Assembly: GCF_014132355.1 (NCBI RefSeq)
Contig: NZ_BLZO01000039.1
Coordinates: forward strand, 1 to 64,000
Source: Okeania sp. KiyG1
Lineage (GTDB): Bacteria > Cyanobacteriota > Cyanobacteriia > Cyanobacteriales > Microcoleaceae
DNA length: 64,000 nt
Direction of reading: 5' to 3'
Shown piece by piece: positions 56,672 to 64,000 of the stretch (position 1 is the first letter of the stretch; every line of letters begins with the position of its first letter). Under the pieces are notes generated by a model that had not been told where the DNA came from, did not search any database, and saw nothing but the letters and a program-made list of their open reading frames with translations. A program made the position numbers and the translations under genes.

Positions 56672-57547
56672 CTATTCAAGAGTCCTGGGGGGGATACGCA
56701 ATACACGAAAACCAGTAAAGAGGTTTAAGGTATCAAATGTGCTGCGGAACGCAGAGCGACAGTCTTTAGGAGAGTAGTTCCAGCAGCCACCACGAATGAC
56801 TTTTTTAGTAGCCTTTGTAGTTTTTTGATTACCTAATAGCCACGCACCACTATCATTAGGTGCGTTTTCATAATTCTTGTGCAAATCATCTTCGCACCAT
56901 TCAAAAACGTTGCCGTGCATATCGTACAATCCAAAAGAATTAGCAACTTTGAAGTAACCGACTGGAGTGGTTTGTTTTCTATGTTCTCCTTTTGGACCTC
57001 TGCCATAGGAACCACTGTAGATATTTTTACCAGTCTCTTGATCTACTCCATGGTAGTTAGCTAGGTCTGTAGTAATAGTTTCCCCAAAATGAAAGGGTGT
57101 AGTCGTTTCTGCACGACAAGCATATTCCCATTCTGCTTCACTAGGTAGCCGATATTCTCTCCCTGTCTTCTGAGTTAACCGGGCGCAGAACTCTTGAGCA
57201 TCTAGCCAGGAAACTTGCTCAACTGGGCGACTCCAACGCTCATAGTTTTCATAGTCATCTTTAAAATATGAAGGGTCAGAATTAAGGTCACGTTCAATCC
57301 TTTCAGTGGTTTCGACAACGGCTTTCCACTGACCCTGAGTAATTGGATAACGCCCCATATAAAATTCAGGTACTGTAACTTCATGTTGGGGACTTTCCCT
57401 ATTCTGTCGCTCTAATTCATCTTCTGGGGAACCCATGAGGAACTTACCCCCTGGAATCTTCACCATAACTAGCTCAACATTATTACCCAGGTCTTCAATA
57501 TAGTATTCAGCTTGTTGCTTCTTCTTACGAATAGTTATTCTTACCAT
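56672..57547 (-). CDS. FGE-sulfatase (SUMF1/C-type-lectin fold) protein 1
   Basis: A stand-alone 291-residue protein: a short N-terminal part (MVRITIRKKKQQAEYYIEDL) and then the FGE-sulfatase domain from about residue 27. Domain markers are VMVKIPGGKFLMGSPEDELE, MGRYPITQGQWKAVV, PVEQVSWLDAQEFCARL, REYRLPSEAEWEYACRAETT, GLYDMHGNVFEWCEDD and VIRGGCWNYSP, ending GFRVLRIPPRTLE. One cysteine of the FGE pair (KDC) is kept and the other is not at the expected place, so formylglycine synthesis is unlikely. A binding role in the C-type-lectin fold is more probable. The last 90 bp look like a variable region. It is nearly identical to protein 2 over most of its length. Confidence 0.9.
   Translation of the reverse strand: MVRITIRKKKQQAEYYIEDLGNNVELVMVKIPGGKFLMGSPEDELERQNRESPQHEVTVPEFYMGRYPITQGQWKAVVETTERIERDLNSDPSYFKDDYENYERWSRPVEQVSWLDAQEFCARLTQKTGREYRLPSEAEWEYACRAETTTPFHFGETITTDLANYHGVDQETGKNIYSGSYGRGPKGEHRKQTTPVGYFKVANSFGLYDMHGNVFEWCEDDLHKNYENAPNDSGAWLLGNQKTTKATKKVIRGGCWNYSPKDCRSAFRSTFDTLNLFTGFRVLRIPPRTLE
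56707..56790 (-). other. Candidate variable region (VR) of FGE protein 1
   Basis: Codons between RGG.W and GFRVLR. It is two codons shorter than in the other two genes. Flanks (GGTTTTCGTGTATTGCG on the minus strand) are identical in all three. Confidence 0.6.
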
Positions 57548-58038
57548 TTCAGTTATCAGTCATCAGTTATCAGTTATCAGCTTTTTTCAGTTCTTTTGAT
57601 GATGGAAAATAAGATTTTAGCAATCTCATCTGCACCTTTTCAGTTATCAGTTATCAGCTTTTTCAGTCCTTTGTGACCTAAAATAAGCTTGAGGTATATA
57701 GTAGCCGTCATTACTGTTAGGAAATTTTTAAACTCTCAAATTTAGTCATAGCAAGAATGTACAGGTAATTCATAAATTACTCCTACTTCTGACTTTTAAC
57801 TTCAAATATACCTTCATTTGCTTCTGCTATATTCGCTCCAATAGATGTCCCACTTCTCAACAATTGTTTAGATAATACATATTCTTTTTTTTCCTCAGTT
57901 AAATATTTATAAGCTTTGACAATTCTAATAGCAAATTAGTAAGCTTTTTGATAAACTAATGCTCTTATTTATATCCATAAGTTTAGGCGCTAATAACTAA
58001 AAAAACTGATAACTGAAAAAGCTGATAACTGATAACTG
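57548..58038. other. Gap between FGE genes 1 and 2
   Basis: No gene. TTATCAG heptamers (57548-57580, 57640-57660 and 58000-58037) bracket AT-rich sequence. The words AACTGAAAAAGCTGATAACT near the FGE-2 stop are heptamer-derived. Confidence 0.5.
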
Positions 58039-58896
58039 TTAAAGAGTCCTGGGGGAGATACGCAATACACGAAAACCAATAAAGTTGTACAAGTCATCCG
58101 GATTATAGATGTCGTGGTACGCAGAGCGACAGTTCCCTGGAAAGTCAGTCCATGAGCCACCACGAATGACTGTTGTAGTAACTTCTGCAATGTTTTGATT
58201 ACCTGGTGCGCGGTTAATATAGTGCCACTGCCGCTCATCTTTACACCATTCCAAAACGTTGCCGTGCATATCGTACAATCCAAAGAAATTAGAAGTTTTA
58301 AAGTAACCGACTGGAGTGGTTTGTTCTCTATATTTTCCCTTTGGACCTCTACCATAGGAACCACTGTAGATAATCTCATCAATATCTCTATCTACTCCAC
58401 AGTAGTTAGCTAGGTCTGTAGTAATAGTTTCCCCAAAATGAAAGGGTGTAGTCGTTCCTGCACGACAAGCATATTCCCATTCTGCTTCACTGGGTAACCG
58501 ATAGTCTCTCCCTGTCTTCTGGCTTAACCGGGCGCAAAACTCTTGAGCATCTAGCCAGGAAACTTGCTCAACTGGGCGATTCCAACGCCCATAGTTTTCA
58601 TAGTCGTCTTTAAAAAATGAAGGGTCAGAATTAAGGTCACGTTCAATTTTTTTAGTGGTTTCGACAACTGCTTTCCACTGACCCTGAGTAATTGGATAAC
58701 GCCCCATGTAAAATTCCGGCACTGTAACTTCATGTTGGGGGCTTTCCAAGCTCACTCGCTCTAATTCATTTTCGGGAGAACCCATGAGGAATTTGCCTCC
58801 TGGAATCTTCACCATAGCTAGCTCAACATTATTGCCCAGGTCTTCTATATAGTATTCAGCCTGTTGCTTTTTCTCACAAATAGTTATTCTTACCAT
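58039..58896 (-). CDS. FGE-sulfatase (SUMF1/C-type-lectin fold) protein 2
   Basis: The start is placed at 58896 (MVRITICEKKQQAEYYIEDL) by analogy with protein 1. An ATG at 59028 lies in frame upstream, but its 44 codons are translated tandem-repeat DNA. The 285-residue product has the same order of motifs: AMVKIPGGKFLMGSPENELE, VSWLDAQEFCARLSQKTGR, DYRLPSEAEWEYACRAGTTT, MHGNVLEWCKDE and VIRGGSWTDFPGNC, then GFRVLRISPRTL. It differs from protein 1 mainly in the last 90 bp and in the loop before them. It is a duplicate, and probably binds a diversified ligand rather than modifying sulfatases. Confidence 0.9.
   Translation of the reverse strand: MVRITICEKKQQAEYYIEDLGNNVELAMVKIPGGKFLMGSPENELERVSLESPQHEVTVPEFYMGRYPITQGQWKAVVETTKKIERDLNSDPSFFKDDYENYGRWNRPVEQVSWLDAQEFCARLSQKTGRDYRLPSEAEWEYACRAGTTTPFHFGETITTDLANYCGVDRDIDEIIYSGSYGRGPKGKYREQTTPVGYFKTSNFFGLYDMHGNVLEWCKDERQWHYINRAPGNQNIAEVTTTVIRGGSWTDFPGNCRSAYHDIYNPDDLYNFIGFRVLRISPRTL
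58072..58162 (-). other. Candidate variable region (VR) of FGE protein 2
   Basis: Between RGGSW and GFRVLR. Compared codon by codon with the VR of the SAV_2336-FGE gene, ten codons differ at position 1 or 2 with the third base unchanged (for example AAT/ACT, AAC/GAC, ATT/TTT, GCT/GAT, GCC/GAC). Six codons change the third base. Confidence 0.65.
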
Positions 58897-58949
58897 TAAT
58901 CTGCTAGGATAGCTTACAATTATTTCTATATTACTTCCTAATCTTACTA

Positions 58950-59165
58950 CTCCAGTCCCCCCCTCTTTTTTAGGCCACTTCAGTCCACTCCAGTCCCCCC
59001 TTTTTAAGGCTACTCCAGTCCACTCCAATTCCCCCTTTTTAAGGCTAACTCCAGTCCACTCCAGTTCCCCCCTTTTTAAGGCTACTCCAGTCCACTCCAG
59101 TTCCCCCCTTTTTAAGGCTGCTCCAGTCCACTCCAGTCCCCCCCTTTTTAAGGGGGGCTAGGGGG
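58950..59165. repeat. Tandem repeat of about 41 bp, five to six units
   Basis: Units contain CTCCAGTCCACTCCAGT followed by TCCCCCCTTTTTAAGGCT, with a final GGGGGGCTAGGGGGGATC. It lies between FGE-2 and the DUF559 gene and creates a false N-terminal extension of FGE-2. Confidence 0.8.
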
Positions 59166-59221
59166 GATCAAAAAGCCAGGAGATATCAACATAGAAGTAA
59201 AACCAACCACAAACTCCCACC

Positions 59222-59605
59222 ATGCCAAAACTCAACGACTCCAACTTTCACCTCCCCTACAACCGCCAACTCGTCCCCATCGCCAAACAACTCCGCAAAA
59301 ACCCCACTCCAGCAGAAAAAAAACTCTGGCAAGATTTCCTCAGAACTTTTCCCCTGCGCGTGTTGAGACAGCGACCTATTGATAACTTTATTGTTGATTT
59401 CTATTGTGCTGCTCTGAGGTTGGTAATTGAAATTGATGGGGATAGCCACTTTACGGAGGAAGGAAAAGCTTATGATGCTGAGAGGACTTCTGTTTTGGAA
59501 GGTTATGGGTTACGGGTGATTAGGTTTACTAATGTTGAGGTTTTGCAAGAGTTTGAGGGAGTTTGTTGGCGGTTGGAGAGTTTGATTGGTGAGTTGAGAG
59601 ATTGA
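59222..59605 (+). CDS. DUF559 domain endonuclease-like protein
   Basis: A 127-residue protein of the DUF559 family, related to Vsr-type PD-(D/E)XK nucleases. Features: ARQLRKNPTPAEKKLW-like start (AKQLRKNPTPAEKKLWQDFL), VLRQRPIDNFIVDFYC, RLVIEIDGDSHF (the acidic catalytic region) and VIRFTNVEVLQEFEGV. Such genes are often found near or within mobile and repeat DNA. It is on the plus strand, opposite to the FGE/MoxR genes, and is bracketed by GGGGGGTTAGGGGGGATC-type repeats, so it is probably an insertion into that locus rather than part of it. Confidence 0.9.
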   Translation: MPKLNDSNFHLPYNRQLVPIAKQLRKNPTPAEKKLWQDFLRTFPLRVLRQRPIDNFIVDFYCAALRLVIEIDGDSHFTEEGKAYDAERTSVLEGYGLRVIRFTNVEVLQEFEGVCWRLESLIGELRD

Positions 59606-60471
59606 TCCCCCCTAACCCCCCTTGAAAAGGGGGGGACCGGAGTTGGAGAAGGAGCGATCGCTCCCCAAGTATAAGATTTCCCATTAACAGCAGGGATTTT
59701 TTTGTGTTGACTTTTGTCCTCCCCTTCTTTCTCTTGTCCCTCCCTTCTTCTCTTGTCCCCCCCTTCTTAAGGGGGGTTAGGGGGGATCAACACAGGAGCT
59801 ATCAACCCGCAACTAACCTTCCGACTACTACCTCCAAGAGCGATCGCTCCCCAAGTATAAGATTTCCCATTAACAGCAGGGATTTTTTTGTGTTGACTCT
59901 TGTCCCTCCCTTCTTCTGTTGTCCCCCCCTTCTTAAGGGAGGTTAGGGGGGATAAACACAGGAGTTATCAACCCGCAACTAACCTTCCGACTACTACCTC
60001 GAAGAGCGAACGCTCCCCAAGTATAAGATTTCCCATTAACAGCAGGGATTTTTTGGTGTTGACTCTTGTACCTTCTTCTTCTGTTGTCCCCCCCTTCTTA
60101 AGGGAGGTTAGGGGGGATAAACACAGGAGTTATCAACCCGCAACTAACCTTCCGACTACTACCTCGAAGAGCGATCGCTCTCTAACTCAAGATTTCCGCT
60201 CAACAGCAGGGATTTTTTGGTGTTGATTTTACCTTGGGTTTCGATCCCCCCTAACCCCCCTTGAAAAGGGGGGGACTGGAATTTGGTAACGTGCGATCGC
60301 TCTCTAACTCAAGATTTCCGCTCAACAGCAGGGATTTTTTGGTGTTGATTTTACCTTGGGTTTTGATCCCCCCTAACCCCCCTTGAAAAGGGGGGGACTG
60401 GACTTTGGTAACGTGCGAACGCTCTTTTCTCTCGCCAAAGACTGGACTCAAGAGGGTAAAAGAGTGTCTAT
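59606..60471. repeat. Tandem repeat of about 165-180 bp, four to five units
   Basis: AACAGCAGGGATTTTTT recurs at about 59690, 59872, 60040, 60203 and 60326. Each unit also has GCGATCGCTC or its mutated form GCGAACGCTC, GTGTTGAC, CCCCCCTTCTTAAGGG with GGTTAGGGGGGAT, and (units 1-4) TATCAACCCGCAACTAACCT. No gene. Confidence 0.8.
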
Positions 60472-63057
60472 TCAAGATACACGCAATACACGAAAACCAA
60501 TAAAGTTATTCGAGGCAGCAGGAATATAGTTGTCGCGGTACGCGGTTCGACAGTATATGGGAATGTTATTCCAGGAGCCGCCACGAACAATTTTCCTAGT
60601 AGTTTCTGTAGTATTTTGATTCCCTGATAGCCATGCACGACCATCATTGGGTGCGCCCTTATAATTATTATGCCAATCATCTTGGCACCACTCATAAACA
60701 TTGCCGTGCATATCATATAAGCCAAAAGCATTCGCTACTTCAAAACTACCTACAGGAGTTGTTTTTTTTCTATACTTATCTTTTGCCCCTTGGATATAAG
60801 TATAATTGCCGTTATAATTTGCTAAATTTGTAGTAATAGCTTTCCCAAAATGAAAAGGTGTAGTCGTTCCTGCACGACAGGCATATTCCCATTCAGCTTC
60901 ACTGGGGAGCCGATAGTTTCTGCCTGTATATCTAGAGAGTCTGGCACAAAATTCTACTGCATCGTACCAAGATACTGTTTCTACAGGTTGATTATCTCCT
61001 TTAAATCTTGAAGGGTTGGACTCAAGGTCACGTTGAATTTTCGGAACATTATTAACAATGGCTTTCCACTGACCTTGAGTAATGGGATAGCGACCCATAA
61101 GAAAAGCTGAAACAATCACTATATGTTTAGGACTTTCATCACTAAAGCGTTCCACTTCATCTTCTGGGGAACCCATCAGAAACTTTCCTGTGGGGATTTC
61201 AACCAGTTCAAGTTTGATTCCATTGTCTAAGTCTTCAATAATGCCTGTAACTCGTCGGCGTTGTTTTTCAATTACCCATCCATTTCTCAAAAATCCTAAA
61301 CGTCTTCTTTCCAGCTTTCCTACATCAAACTCAAACGTTACAGTTTCCTCCACCTCAATGAAGGCAACGTCAAAGGTATCAATTAAAATTTGAGGTTCTG
61401 GTGTAATTTCTCCAGTTTCCCCCATTGTTGAATCTGGAACACTCGAAATATTCCGAGAAACCTCGCGAGCAAATTCGGCATATTCTCCCCCTAGATTTTC
61501 CAATACTTCAACAGCAACTTGAGCAAAAGGTAAAATTTTCTCCCGGTCTTCCTTTTCATATTGAGGCAATAACGTCAACAACGCCCGAAAACTACGAATA
61601 GGTCGGTCAATTTTTTCAGCTATGTCACGAGAAATAGCATCCAGAACCGCTGTAGTTTCATTGCGTCCCATTGCCTGATTCAACTCTTGTCGGACACCAG
61701 GGATAAATTCATAGATTTGTTCTTGACCGTTAGAGTCAGTTGCAGCAAGCAAACCTCCCATATAAACTTCTGCTACATGAACAGGGGTAGCTTCTGGTAA
61801 TAGATTTTTGCGAATCAAGTTAACCACAGATAAATTTACCGGAGCTGCTGCCATCATTCCTGCCAGTCGTTGAGCAGTAATAGAAGTTGTTGCCAGAAAT
61901 TGCCTCACCCTAGTTGCTGCTGAAACTTCCTTTCTAGACTCGCTTTGCTGAGGTCGATCGCCATATTGTTCCTCAACAAATTCTAAATCAAATAAAAATA
62001 TAGGTACTCGTGCGTTACTTGCTCCCGACACCACCCGACACCAACTTTTCAACAGTTCAGGTTCGGGTAGAATAACTGGTAAAACCAAAGCATTTTTCCA
62101 GTCAATATCTATCCAAGCAGGTAGATTTTCCAACACCAGACGGGGGTTAGCAACTCCTGGTGTAATAGCAGTACCGAATAATTTACGTCCCGCTCCCAGT
62201 TGGGTACTCTCCCAAAGATATTCGGGGAACATTTGTAGCACCGTAGTTGGGCTTTTTTCCGACCAACTTTTTAACCAGCGGTGAATAGTTGCATTTTGCC
62301 AAACCCCAGAGGTACAGTCACTCACCAGAATAACTACTCCCCGTTGGTTGGGATGAATCAATTCTGGGTGACTATGTTCACGTTCCCTGGGTTTTCCACT
62401 GCTATCTCGCCGGACTAATTTTAACGATTTGCTTTTTGAACTCAGCAAACTCCAGACTCGCACATTTCTAAATGCTCCTTGAGTTTCAAAAATTTCTTGC
62501 AGTTCATTAACCGTCTCTCTCCAAATAAAAGCCGAACTAGACTCTTCTACCACCAGTTCTAGATCGAGCCACCGTTCCGGTTCTGGTTTAGTAACGGGCA
62601 ACCACACATCCCGCTCGGCAATGAGATTCACGGTTGCTTCATCGTCTAGCACTTCCCCTGTAAGCGAGGGAACTTTCCGCATTAAAGGGCGCAGCGCACG
62701 GCCTAATTCCAGAACATTCTGGAGAGCTGCTGCTGCTGGAGCTTGAAAAGGTAAACCTTTGACTGGAGGTTGTTCGGGGGTTTGATGAGTTGGTTCTTCA
62801 GTGATGACTGAAACAATGGGTTCCCTGTCAGGTATAAATTCTAGTGGTTCACCTTCCTCAAATTCGATCGCCAGAGGTTGTTCGGGTTCTGTTTTTTGCT
62901 CCTGCTTTTCTTGAGTCTCTACCTTACCCATTTGTAAAGCTAACCAGATGCTATCGGCAATATTTTCATCGCTGAGTTCCAGACGTTTTAACATTCCGGT
63001 TTCATCGAGTCGGTCTATCAAACGTTCAATGGCATAATAAAGACTGGGACCGCTCAT
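60472..63057 (-). CDS. SAV_2336-type vWA-like protein fused to FGE-sulfatase domain
   Basis: An 861-residue protein. Residues about 1-45 are a helical SAV_2336-like start (LYYAIERLIDRLDETGMLKR). About 46-100 are an acidic/Pro linker. About 160-330 are a vWA-like Rossmann domain (RWLDLELVVEESSSAFIWRE with a degenerate metal site, VVILVSDCTSGVW). About 330-500 is a conserved helical region (VPIFLFDLEFVEEQYGD, VAEVYMGGLLAATDSNGQEQ). Residues 615-861 are an FGE-sulfatase domain (LVEIPTGKFLMGSPEDEVER, YRLPSEAEWEYACRAGTTTP, MHGNVYEWCQDDWHNNY, ending GFRVLRVS). It starts 3 bp after the MoxR stop, so the two form an operon. This pairing matches the NTP-dependent conflict systems described with MoxR and vWA-type partners. 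The C-terminal 90 bp resemble a DGR variable region. Confidence 0.88.
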   Translation of the reverse strand: MSGPSLYYAIERLIDRLDETGMLKRLELSDENIADSIWLALQMGKVETQEKQEQKTEPEQPLAIEFEEGEPLEFIPDREPIVSVITEEPTHQTPEQPPVKGLPFQAPAAAALQNVLELGRALRPLMRKVPSLTGEVLDDEATVNLIAERDVWLPVTKPEPERWLDLELVVEESSSAFIWRETVNELQEIFETQGAFRNVRVWSLLSSKSKSLKLVRRDSSGKPREREHSHPELIHPNQRGVVILVSDCTSGVWQNATIHRWLKSWSEKSPTTVLQMFPEYLWESTQLGAGRKLFGTAITPGVANPRLVLENLPAWIDIDWKNALVLPVILPEPELLKSWCRVVSGASNARVPIFLFDLEFVEEQYGDRPQQSESRKEVSAATRVRQFLATTSITAQRLAGMMAAAPVNLSVVNLIRKNLLPEATPVHVAEVYMGGLLAATDSNGQEQIYEFIPGVRQELNQAMGRNETTAVLDAISRDIAEKIDRPIRSFRALLTLLPQYEKEDREKILPFAQVAVEVLENLGGEYAEFAREVSRNISSVPDSTMGETGEITPEPQILIDTFDVAFIEVEETVTFEFDVGKLERRRLGFLRNGWVIEKQRRRVTGIIEDLDNGIKLELVEIPTGKFLMGSPEDEVERFSDESPKHIVIVSAFLMGRYPITQGQWKAIVNNVPKIQRDLESNPSRFKGDNQPVETVSWYDAVEFCARLSRYTGRNYRLPSEAEWEYACRAGTTTPFHFGKAITTNLANYNGNYTYIQGAKDKYRKKTTPVGSFEVANAFGLYDMHGNVYEWCQDDWHNNYKGAPNDGRAWLSGNQNTTETTRKIVRGGSWNNIPIYCRTAYRDNYIPAASNNFIGFRVLRVS
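60492..60582 (-). other. Candidate variable region (VR) of the SAV_2336-FGE protein
   Basis: The segment from RGGSW to GFRVLR. Many codons are of the AAY-derived kind (AAT, AAC, TAC, GAC, ATT, TAT, TTT). Third bases match FGE-2 at 18 of 24 aligned codons although the encoded residues differ widely. Confidence 0.6.
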
Positions 63058-63060
63058 CGT

Positions 63061-64000
63061 TTAATCCTCATCCTCAACTCTTCCTAAATCTTGGAAAAGT
63101 TGCTGCACTAATTTATCCTCAGCGAATGTTTTGCCTTCTGTAGCAGGAATGCGACCCTCTGTTACCATGAAAATTGCATTCAGTAACTGGTCAGTTGCCA
63201 GAGTTCTCTCATCTCCTAGATTAATAAAACCCTCAATCAGTTGTTGTATTTTTTCCTGTTCCGCAGTAGCTTGATTAAAATGAGCAGTAACAATTCTGGT
63301 CAACTCCTCCTTTGTGGGAGATTTCATCCTTAAGCGCAAACACCGTCGTAAAAAAGGTGCGGGAAAATCTCTCTCTCCGTTACTGGTCATTACCACAAAA
63401 GGGAAAGCGGTGCAAGTTATCCGCCCATTCTCAACTTCCGCTTCCATCTCAGAGGCAGTCTTTTCGTCAGTTTCATCAGTGTAAGCAGTACGCACCGTTA
63501 CCTTGTCTACCTCTTTCTTAATTCTCACTAATTCTGGGATTTCAAAAAATCCTTCTTCTAGAATAGTCAGTAAGTTATTGGGTAGATCGATGTCACTTTT
63601 ATCAATCTCATCTATCAGGAGAACGCGAGGATATTTTGACGGTAGCAAACTTGTACCTAAAGACCCCAGAGTTATATATTTTTCAATCTGTTGAATTTGT
63701 TCTCGACGTTCTTCTGGGGAAAGAGTTTGATTATTTAGGTTTTCCTGTTGTTTAGCTTCCTGTAACCGACCGATAGCATCATAACTGTATAGTCCCTCTT
63801 TCAAGGTAGTGCGAGTGGTAATTGGCCAGTAAAGCACTTCTCCCAGTTTCAGTTGTCGAGCTACAGCATAAGCGAGGGAAGATTTACCCGTTCCTGGTTT
63901 GCCAGTAATTAGTAATGGTCGCCTCAAGTATAATGCAGCATTAATCATTTTTACCTCATCAGGACGCACCTGAAAAGTTTCACCCCGTCGTTTCAGGCGA
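63061..64000 (-). CDS. MoxR-type AAA ATPase, 5' end outside window
   Basis: The visible C-terminal 310 or so residues start in frame at the window edge (RLKRRGETFQVRPDEVKMIN); a GTG at 63969 is not the true start because the family sequence continues upstream. Walker A: LLITGKPGTGKSSLAYAVAR. Walker B: PRVLLIDEIDKSDIDLPNNL. Sensor 1 region: FPFVVMTSNGERDFPAPFLR, with the arginine finger RRCLRL. MoxR ATPases remodel or activate partner proteins, commonly with vWA-domain partners. Here the next gene, 3 bp away, supplies a vWA-like domain. The KGKPGTGKS...LEEGFFEIPELV pattern is the subtype seen with SAV_2336-type proteins. Confidence 0.9.
   Translation of the reverse strand, partial: RLKRRGETFQVRPDEVKMINAALYLRRPLLITGKPGTGKSSLAYAVARQLKLGEVLYWPITTRTTLKEGLYSYDAIGRLQEAKQQENLNNQTLSPEERREQIQQIEKYITLGSLGTSLLPSKYPRVLLIDEIDKSDIDLPNNLLTILEEGFFEIPELVRIKKEVDKVTVRTAYTDETDEKTASEMEAEVENGRITCTAFPFVVMTSNGERDFPAPFLRRCLRLRMKSPTKEELTRIVTAHFNQATAEQEKIQQLIEGFINLGDERTLATDQLLNAIFMVTEGRIPATEGKTFAEDKLVQQLFQDLGRVEDED

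Follow-up and report, generated by a model that had tools for sequence, protein, structure and literature searches.

Three genes encoding C-terminal CLec/FGE domains in the window, which is the whole 64,000-nucleotide stretch of DNA analysed, very probably carry variable regions (VRs) orphaned by the loss of a diversity-generating retroelement (DGR), whose former place was between SAV_2336-FGE and the FGE genes. The sequence comparisons point to past hypermutation, rather than to a working DGR at this locus, where searches found no reverse transcriptase (RT), matching template repeat (TR) or Avd. The locus, in the order AAA, SAV_2336-FGE, gap, FGE-2, FGE-1, comprises the following features:

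63061..63969, minus strand: AAA ATPase (AAA_5), window part of a 350-aa gene
60472..63057, minus strand: SAV_2336-FGE, the long target, 861 aa (NF041121, E=6.8e-140; PF03781, E=1.7e-55)
60499..60570, minus strand: VR of SAV_2336-FGE, 24 codons
60481..60498, minus strand: constant 3' flank of this VR, GGTTTTCGTGTATTGCGT, IMH-like, the same in all 5 VRs compared
58897..60471, no strand: gap with repeats and a DUF559 gene and no Avd or RT match; the orthologous gap in a relative (G011, below) holds Avd, RT and TR
59731..60425, no strand: tandem repeats of 166 and 122 bp
59222..59605, plus strand: DUF559 gene, 127 aa, in place of the cassette
58039..58896, minus strand: FGE-2, CLec-only target, 285 aa counted from ATG
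58078..58149, minus strand: VR of FGE-2, 24 codons
58060..58077, minus strand: constant 3' flank of the FGE-2 VR, IMH-like
56672..57547, minus strand: FGE-1, CLec-only target, 291 aa
56714..56779, minus strand: VR of FGE-1, 22 codons, two fewer than in the other VRs
56696..56713, minus strand: constant 3' flank of the FGE-1 VR, IMH-like

The original prediction placed three FGE C-termini here correctly, all on the minus strand, and made their aligned segments too long at roughly 90 bp: the distance from GG[SC]W to GFR is 66, 72 and 72 bp (22, 24 and 24 codons). Profile matches show that SAV_2336-FGE joins an N-terminal SAV_2336 domain to an FGE/CLec domain at its C-terminus, and this C-terminal domain, with a localized hypervariable segment, is present in the window targets. 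The 27 PDB matches are mostly FGE-family enzymes and include the Treponema variable protein 2y3c (E=7.3e-15). Outside the window, the AAA ATPase gene is adjoined by a gene encoding trypsin, VMAP-M1 and VMAP-C (Trypsin_2, VMAP-M1 and VMAP-C, the last with E=1.7e-26, in one 640-aa protein). The ATPase matched AAA_5 (E=6.6e-9) and scored 20.5 bits against bpMoxR, under the cut-off of 27, so that MoxR-like is a weak label given by position. The SAV_2336 domain stands in the place of the vWA protein, and a Pfam vWA match is absent. The target proteins probably act as sensors in a conflict system of the VMAP type, consisting of trypsin-VMAP, the AAA ATPase and SAV_2336-FGE.

Comparison with Okeania hirsuta indicates that the VRs are hypervariable between the species and that their edges are sharp. 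In SAV_2336-FGE, amino acid changes affect 17/24 VR positions (71%), 118/822 upstream and 0/8 downstream (p=1.5e-9), and all 5 VRs compared from the window and O. hirsuta share one 18-nt 3' flank. Within the window, FGE-1 and FGE-2 differ at 14/22 VR residues versus 44/248 elsewhere (p=8.9e-6). Upstream third-base differences amount to 32/212 (15%) between FGE-1 and FGE-2, 41/216 between FGE-1 and the O. hirsuta FGE gene, and 41-47% for SAV_2336-FGE/FGE pairs in one genome; FGE-1 and FGE-2 look to have been duplicated at about the time of the species split or after it.

The original prediction rested on third-base conservation among the paralogues, and its codon counts for SAV_2336-FGE versus FGE-2 proved exact: of 24 codons, 10 differ at positions 1 and/or 2 only, 8 are identical and 6 change the third base. 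Its description of this as exactly the pattern of a DGR is too strong: 5-7 third-base changes per pair are left, and SAV_2336-FGE lacks an A-bias against the nearest known TR (below). The pattern is rare in upstream blocks. With a block statistic that subtracts twice the third-position differences from those at positions 1 and 2, a value at least as high as that of the VR was reached by 2/203 upstream blocks for SAV_2336-FGE/FGE-2, 0/223 for FGE-1/FGE-2 and 3/214 for FGE-1/SAV_2336-FGE; these blocks overlap, so the counts are not independent trials. Fisher tests that set positions 1/2 against position 3, comparing the VR with upstream sequence, were marginal for all three pairs (p=0.091, 0.042 and 0.066, in the same order). 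Third-base differences were fewer in the VR than in the upstream FGE domain for SAV_2336-FGE/FGE-2 (6/24 vs 94/201, p=0.033), and for FGE-1/SAV_2336-FGE the values were 7/22 vs 83/203 (p=0.28). The two VRs of O. hirsuta itself differ at 26 first or second positions versus 4 third bases. Third-base conservation is missing from 2/3 orthologue pairs between the window and O. hirsuta, namely the SAV_2336-FGE pair (10/24 third bases differ; 180/795 upstream blocks equally extreme) and the FGE-1 pair (47/228 upstream blocks equally extreme).

A link to a DGR comes from a relative in the same family and a different genus, G011, in which the SAV_2336-FGE orthologue adjoins a DGR cassette. Its locus (C237) reads AAA, SAV_2336-FGE, Avd, RT, TR, FGE, with amino acid identities to the window proteins of 85% for AAA, 74% for SAV_2336-FGE and 74% for FGE (to FGE-1). 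The G011 TR differs from its two VRs at 18/29 and 14/29 A sites versus 2/93 and 1/93 non-A sites, a pattern indicating that the G011 orthologue was diversified by a DGR in cis. An early in-frame stop in the G011 RT gene means that this cassette may itself be damaged; the argument rests on the TR/VR pattern and the gene order, and the odds of the DGR reading are therefore unchanged by the stop. In another family, G044 has the order FGE, Avd, RT (380-aa frame), TR, FGE, with TR/VR changes at 18/28 A vs 2/71 non-A sites and 11/28 A vs 0/71 non-A sites. Within the same genus as the window, G004 has a single frame of 365 aa encoding a DGR RT, with A-specific TR/VR differences (10/30 A, 0/69 non-A). 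The loci of the window, O. hirsuta and G008 are without DGR genes.

The window VRs were compared with the G011 TR, which is that of a different genus and the nearest known, over 22 codons per VR. Differences fell at A versus non-A sites in 14/24 vs 11/42 for FGE-1 (p=0.01) and 11/24 vs 9/42 for FGE-2 (p=0.037), in a test that is not specific, because the C70 tail, judged not to be DGR-like, also scores p=0.01-0.04. The bias toward A in this distant TR was consequently dropped as proof. The C70 comparison used 28/30 fetched FGE loci (two short fragments were left out), four of the 28 yielding no tail by the motif applied. In SAV_2336-FGE the A-bias against the G011 TR is absent (A 8/24 vs non-A 16/42, p=0.74). 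Variability is higher at alignment columns that are A in the G011 TR than at the others, both when the window VRs are pooled with those of O. hirsuta (0.60 vs 0.28; permutation p=5e-5) and in the window VRs alone (0.49 vs 0.26, p=0.015).

RT and Avd queries gave zero matches at E<=0.01 on the entire 99-kb contig that contains the window (C39), and the near-identical AAC-rich template that the original prediction expected in the genome, the cognate TR of the window VRs, was not found by TR searches of the assembly. Such searches could miss an unusual TR: one overlooked the known TR of contig C43, and another requires a TGGAAYAAYNAY start. The check for a DGR RT found just one in the assembly, on C43; it is split by an insertion carrying one DDE transposase and two neighbouring frames without a Pfam match, and is paired with a different TR. 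A derivation of the window VRs from that DGR was rejected because of the many non-A mismatches of its TR (44/108, 40/100 and 39/102 sites). Avd matches (bAvd, PF22296) occur only on C43 and C11. With these two further damaged DGR loci and 31 FGE-domain matches, the genome shows DGR decay at several stages.

The 3' flank matched nothing in the viral contigs searched. A plasmid collection gave partial matches in six records. In a defence-gene library, the three FGE proteins and Avd had no match, and the ATPase and RT had only generic ones. A hairpin (CTCGCC-loop-GGCGAG) lies 64 nt past GFR[VL] in 7/21 segments compared; FGE-1 has it, with one mismatch, 56 nt past the motif, SAV_2336-FGE retains 3/6 pairs, and it is absent from the FGE-2 3' segment. 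We rejected it as a DGR mark; a T-run comes after it, and it may therefore be no more than a terminator of transcription.

In the reading we favour, a DGR would formerly have occupied the gap that separates SAV_2336-FGE from the FGE genes. Reverse transcription of an AAC-rich template by its RT would have put random bases at the A positions, and the product would have overwritten the VR as far as the invariant 3' flank (GGTTTTCGTGTATTGCGT), so that ligand-binding residues were renewed while third bases stayed conserved. Avd, RT and TR would then have been lost in the window lineage, with the DUF559 gene and repeats filling the gap, so that the VRs would now be orphans drifting like ordinary genes. 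We infer past retrohoming at this locus, and loss of the cassette rather than an assembly gap. The DUF559 gene is also present in the O. hirsuta gap (93.7% amino acid identity), which makes hypermutation after the species split fit awkwardly. DUF559 might also have been the neighbour of a cassette in the past, with each lineage losing that cassette afterwards. Since the DUF559 gap is common to both species and the VRs are far more diverged than other gene parts, hypermutation might have continued after the local cassette was replaced, driven in trans by a second DGR now lost or unseen; we regard this as conceivable and rather doubtful.

That the VRs are diversified even now, in trans or by a DGR locus that the draft assembly (198 contigs, 92% complete) lacks, is unlikely. 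FGE-1 and FGE-2 have very different VRs, yet their upstream third-base divergence does not exceed that of FGE-1 from O. hirsuta, G004 shows a DGR RT in a single frame in this genus, and diversification in trans has been described for Thiohalocapsa DGR 4/5 (in the available part of PMC10907252); against this, the only DGR-type RT found is interrupted and its TR mismatched, and the assembly yielded no TR-like copy. An origin without any DGR, in which the duplicated FGE genes diverged in the ordinary way, positive selection acted on their ligand-binding loop and gene conversion kept their 3' ends similar, is less probable still. The marginal codon-position tests, the two orthologue pairs lacking third-base conservation and the weak A-test would suit it, but it is opposed by the cassette between the same gene pair in G011, whose TR resembles the tails of the window genes and changes A-specifically into its VRs, by the abrupt fall to 0/8 changes directly after the SAV_2336-FGE VR, and by the O. 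hirsuta VR pair. The original prediction is supported in part: a DGR origin is favoured by the G011 cassette with its A-specific TR-to-VR change and by the sharp-edged hypervariability of the VRs between species, and the template that it expected was not found in this assembly.

Earlier publications cover both VMAP systems equipped with DGRs and DGR loci in decay. The available part of Vallota-Eastman et al. 2020 (PMC7517822) reports cyanobacterial DGRs whose variable proteins are of the CLec/FGE type, and the window shares with them a C-terminal CLec/FGE domain whose 3' end carries the VR and, across its genome, many paralogues. It likewise resembles Nostoc all3226, described there as a target with remnant TR-VR homology and no RT nearby, in having targets without a nearby RT. 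Unlike the DGRs in that portion of the paper, both Okeania loci examined lack a local cassette, and a cognate TR was not found. As far as the accessible sections of Kaur et al. 2020 (PMC7159879) and Dore et al. 2024 (PMC10907252) describe DGR-equipped VMAP ternary conflict systems, the AAA ATPase, the trypsin-VMAP gene and the long and short FGE-tailed targets are common to both; unlike them, the long target here has a SAV_2336 N-terminus without a Pfam vWA match, and the window VRs are probably no longer diversified. At Thiohalocapsa DGR 3, 4, 5 and 7 (same part of PMC10907252), transposons or repeat arrays have broken up RT or TR or taken their place, and transposons or repeats interrupt or replace RT or TR here too. 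The present loci provide a with-and-without comparison of one conflict-system locus, with DGR genes in G011 and none in the window, O. hirsuta and G008, and raise the question of whether a lineage that discards its DGR thereby fixes a useful sensor, as has been suggested for Nostoc in the part of PMC7517822 cited above.

The original prediction had read template-A mutagenesis by a diversity-generating retroelement (DGR) from the codon differences between the variable regions (VRs, the 66-72 bp before GFR) of two genes encoding FGE tails, SAV_2336-FGE and FGE-2. The window covers positions 1-64000 of contig C39 in a genome that comprises 10.98 Mb in 198 contigs, and gene and domain annotation places the following genes within the window:

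AAA ATPase gene, minus strand
SAV_2336-FGE gene, minus strand
FGE-2 gene, minus strand
FGE-1 gene, minus strand

A recount of the codons in this pair of VRs was in exact agreement with the predicted counts. The pattern was seldom seen elsewhere along the same genes when upstream blocks were compared, and plain Fisher tests on it were marginal. At the protein level, the SAV_2336-FGE orthologues differed in 14% of the residues upstream of the VR, 71% of those within it and none of the eight after it, and FGE-1 and FGE-2 differed from each other in 18% of the upstream residues and 64% of those in the VR. The 18-nt 3' flank was one sequence in all five VRs of the window and O. hirsuta, and the relative G011 has its own version. 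This lineage-specific identity is expected if a template homogenises the flank of each lineage; gene conversion would give the same result.

DGR reverse transcriptase (RT) matches (E<=1e-20) were found in 16 of the 60 genomes searched, including the window's own. In G011, contig C237 has the gene order of the window, plus bAvd, RT and template repeat (TR) inside the gap between SAV_2336-FGE and FGE, and the TR/VR differences are A-specific. The RT gene of this cassette (locus L091, around 2841, minus strand) contains an in-frame stop near its start, with the TR and VRs still differing almost only at A, and the G011 mutator may also be decaying. A relative from another family, G044, has the order FGE, Avd, RT (a 380-aa frame), TR and FGE. 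Across relatives, 8 of 10 TR/VR comparisons were A-specific (p<=6e-6), in a set where the TR was taken as the most Asn-rich segment and the mis-assigned L091 comparison was set aside; one comparison at L096 was not A-specific (1/30 A and 7/69 non-A sites). In O. hirsuta (L093/L109), DUF559 occupies the gap, and no RT match at E<=1e-20 came from G003, which was treated as this same genome. The gap in G008 is about 310 bp long and holds no cassette, and that genome likewise has no RT match at this threshold. In G026, the contig stops within a gene at this locus.

Where the cassette probably once lay, window positions 58949-60425 hold dense tandem repeats of 36, 122 and 166 bp with inverted copies. 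The interval between FGE-2 and FGE-1 contains a short open stretch (57783-57863, minus strand), RSGTSIGANIAEANEGIFEVKSQK, apparently a pseudogene remnant, which we take to resemble a fragment of the S23/four-helix-bundle family. At DGR targets of L091 (two), L092, L100, L101, L105 and L106, a CTCGCC-loop-GGCGAG hairpin with a T-run lies exactly 64 nt past the GFR[VL] codons; it is either a terminator or a target-recognition hairpin.

Testing whether VR differences from the G011 TR are concentrated at template A gave weak support for FGE-1 and FGE-2 and none for SAV_2336-FGE, and comparison with other FGE tails showed that the test is not specific. Third bases were unconserved in two of the three orthologue pairs between the window and O. 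hirsuta, those of SAV_2336-FGE and of FGE-1, which is compatible with templates drifting between the species and does not prove it. The pair of FGE-2 and the O. hirsuta FGE-1 counterpart does show the third-base pattern, with 0 of 217 blocks as extreme.

Among the 36 RT matches in the window's own genome, one, on contig C43, has the LGNLTSQ and YVDD motifs, which serve as marks of a DGR-type RT. With the G011 DGR RT as the query, C43 was matched in two pieces, at 63% (E=4.9e-96) and 56% identity (E=3.8e-30), and the next-best match in the genome was at 32% (E=4.1e-10). The C43 RT is broken in two where a segment carrying a DDE transposase gene has inserted. The DGR parts are as follows:

C43, DGR locus: RT, bAvd gene, FGE target and TR
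C11, second bAvd gene: its neighbours are a further FGE target and a transposase gene of the IS605 type

The C43 TR and its VR differ at 14 of 36 A sites and 2 of 107 non-A sites. On C11 (locus L107, 3853-10109), a TPR-FGE target is followed by a shortened bAvd gene and then the IS605-type transposase gene; no RT was seen on this contig near the bAvd gene and FGE target. The C11 locus is a third DGR relic, with the transposase gene sitting where the RT is expected.

The C43 TR was ruled out as the source of the window VRs, with mismatches at 39-44 of 100-108 non-A sites, and a TR-pattern search of the genome retrieved only this TR and the C11 VR, an unusual TR being able to escape both this search and the DNA search. 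Neither the C43 nor the C11 locus therefore explains the window VRs. Contigs C66 and C91 (L145 and L146) carry more FGE-tailed genes, SAV_2336-like paralogues among them, and their C-termini have another common pattern, CRSA[YF]R...IGFRI; these are perhaps the VRs of yet another lost template.

Beyond the window, a trypsin/VMAP-M1/VMAP-C gene adjoins the AAA ATPase gene. Among the papers of the library searched, none contained both 'Okeania' and 'diversity-generating retroelement'. According to Kaur et al. (PMC7159879), roughly 80% of the VMAP systems in cyanobacteria and gammaproteobacteria are associated with DGRs. Dore et al. (PMC10907252) suggest that the targets act as sensors, and some of the loci in their study have an RT or TR that is interrupted or replaced by transposons or repeats. 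Given this published association and these decayed loci, the window represents an already-known kind of system, in a decayed form.
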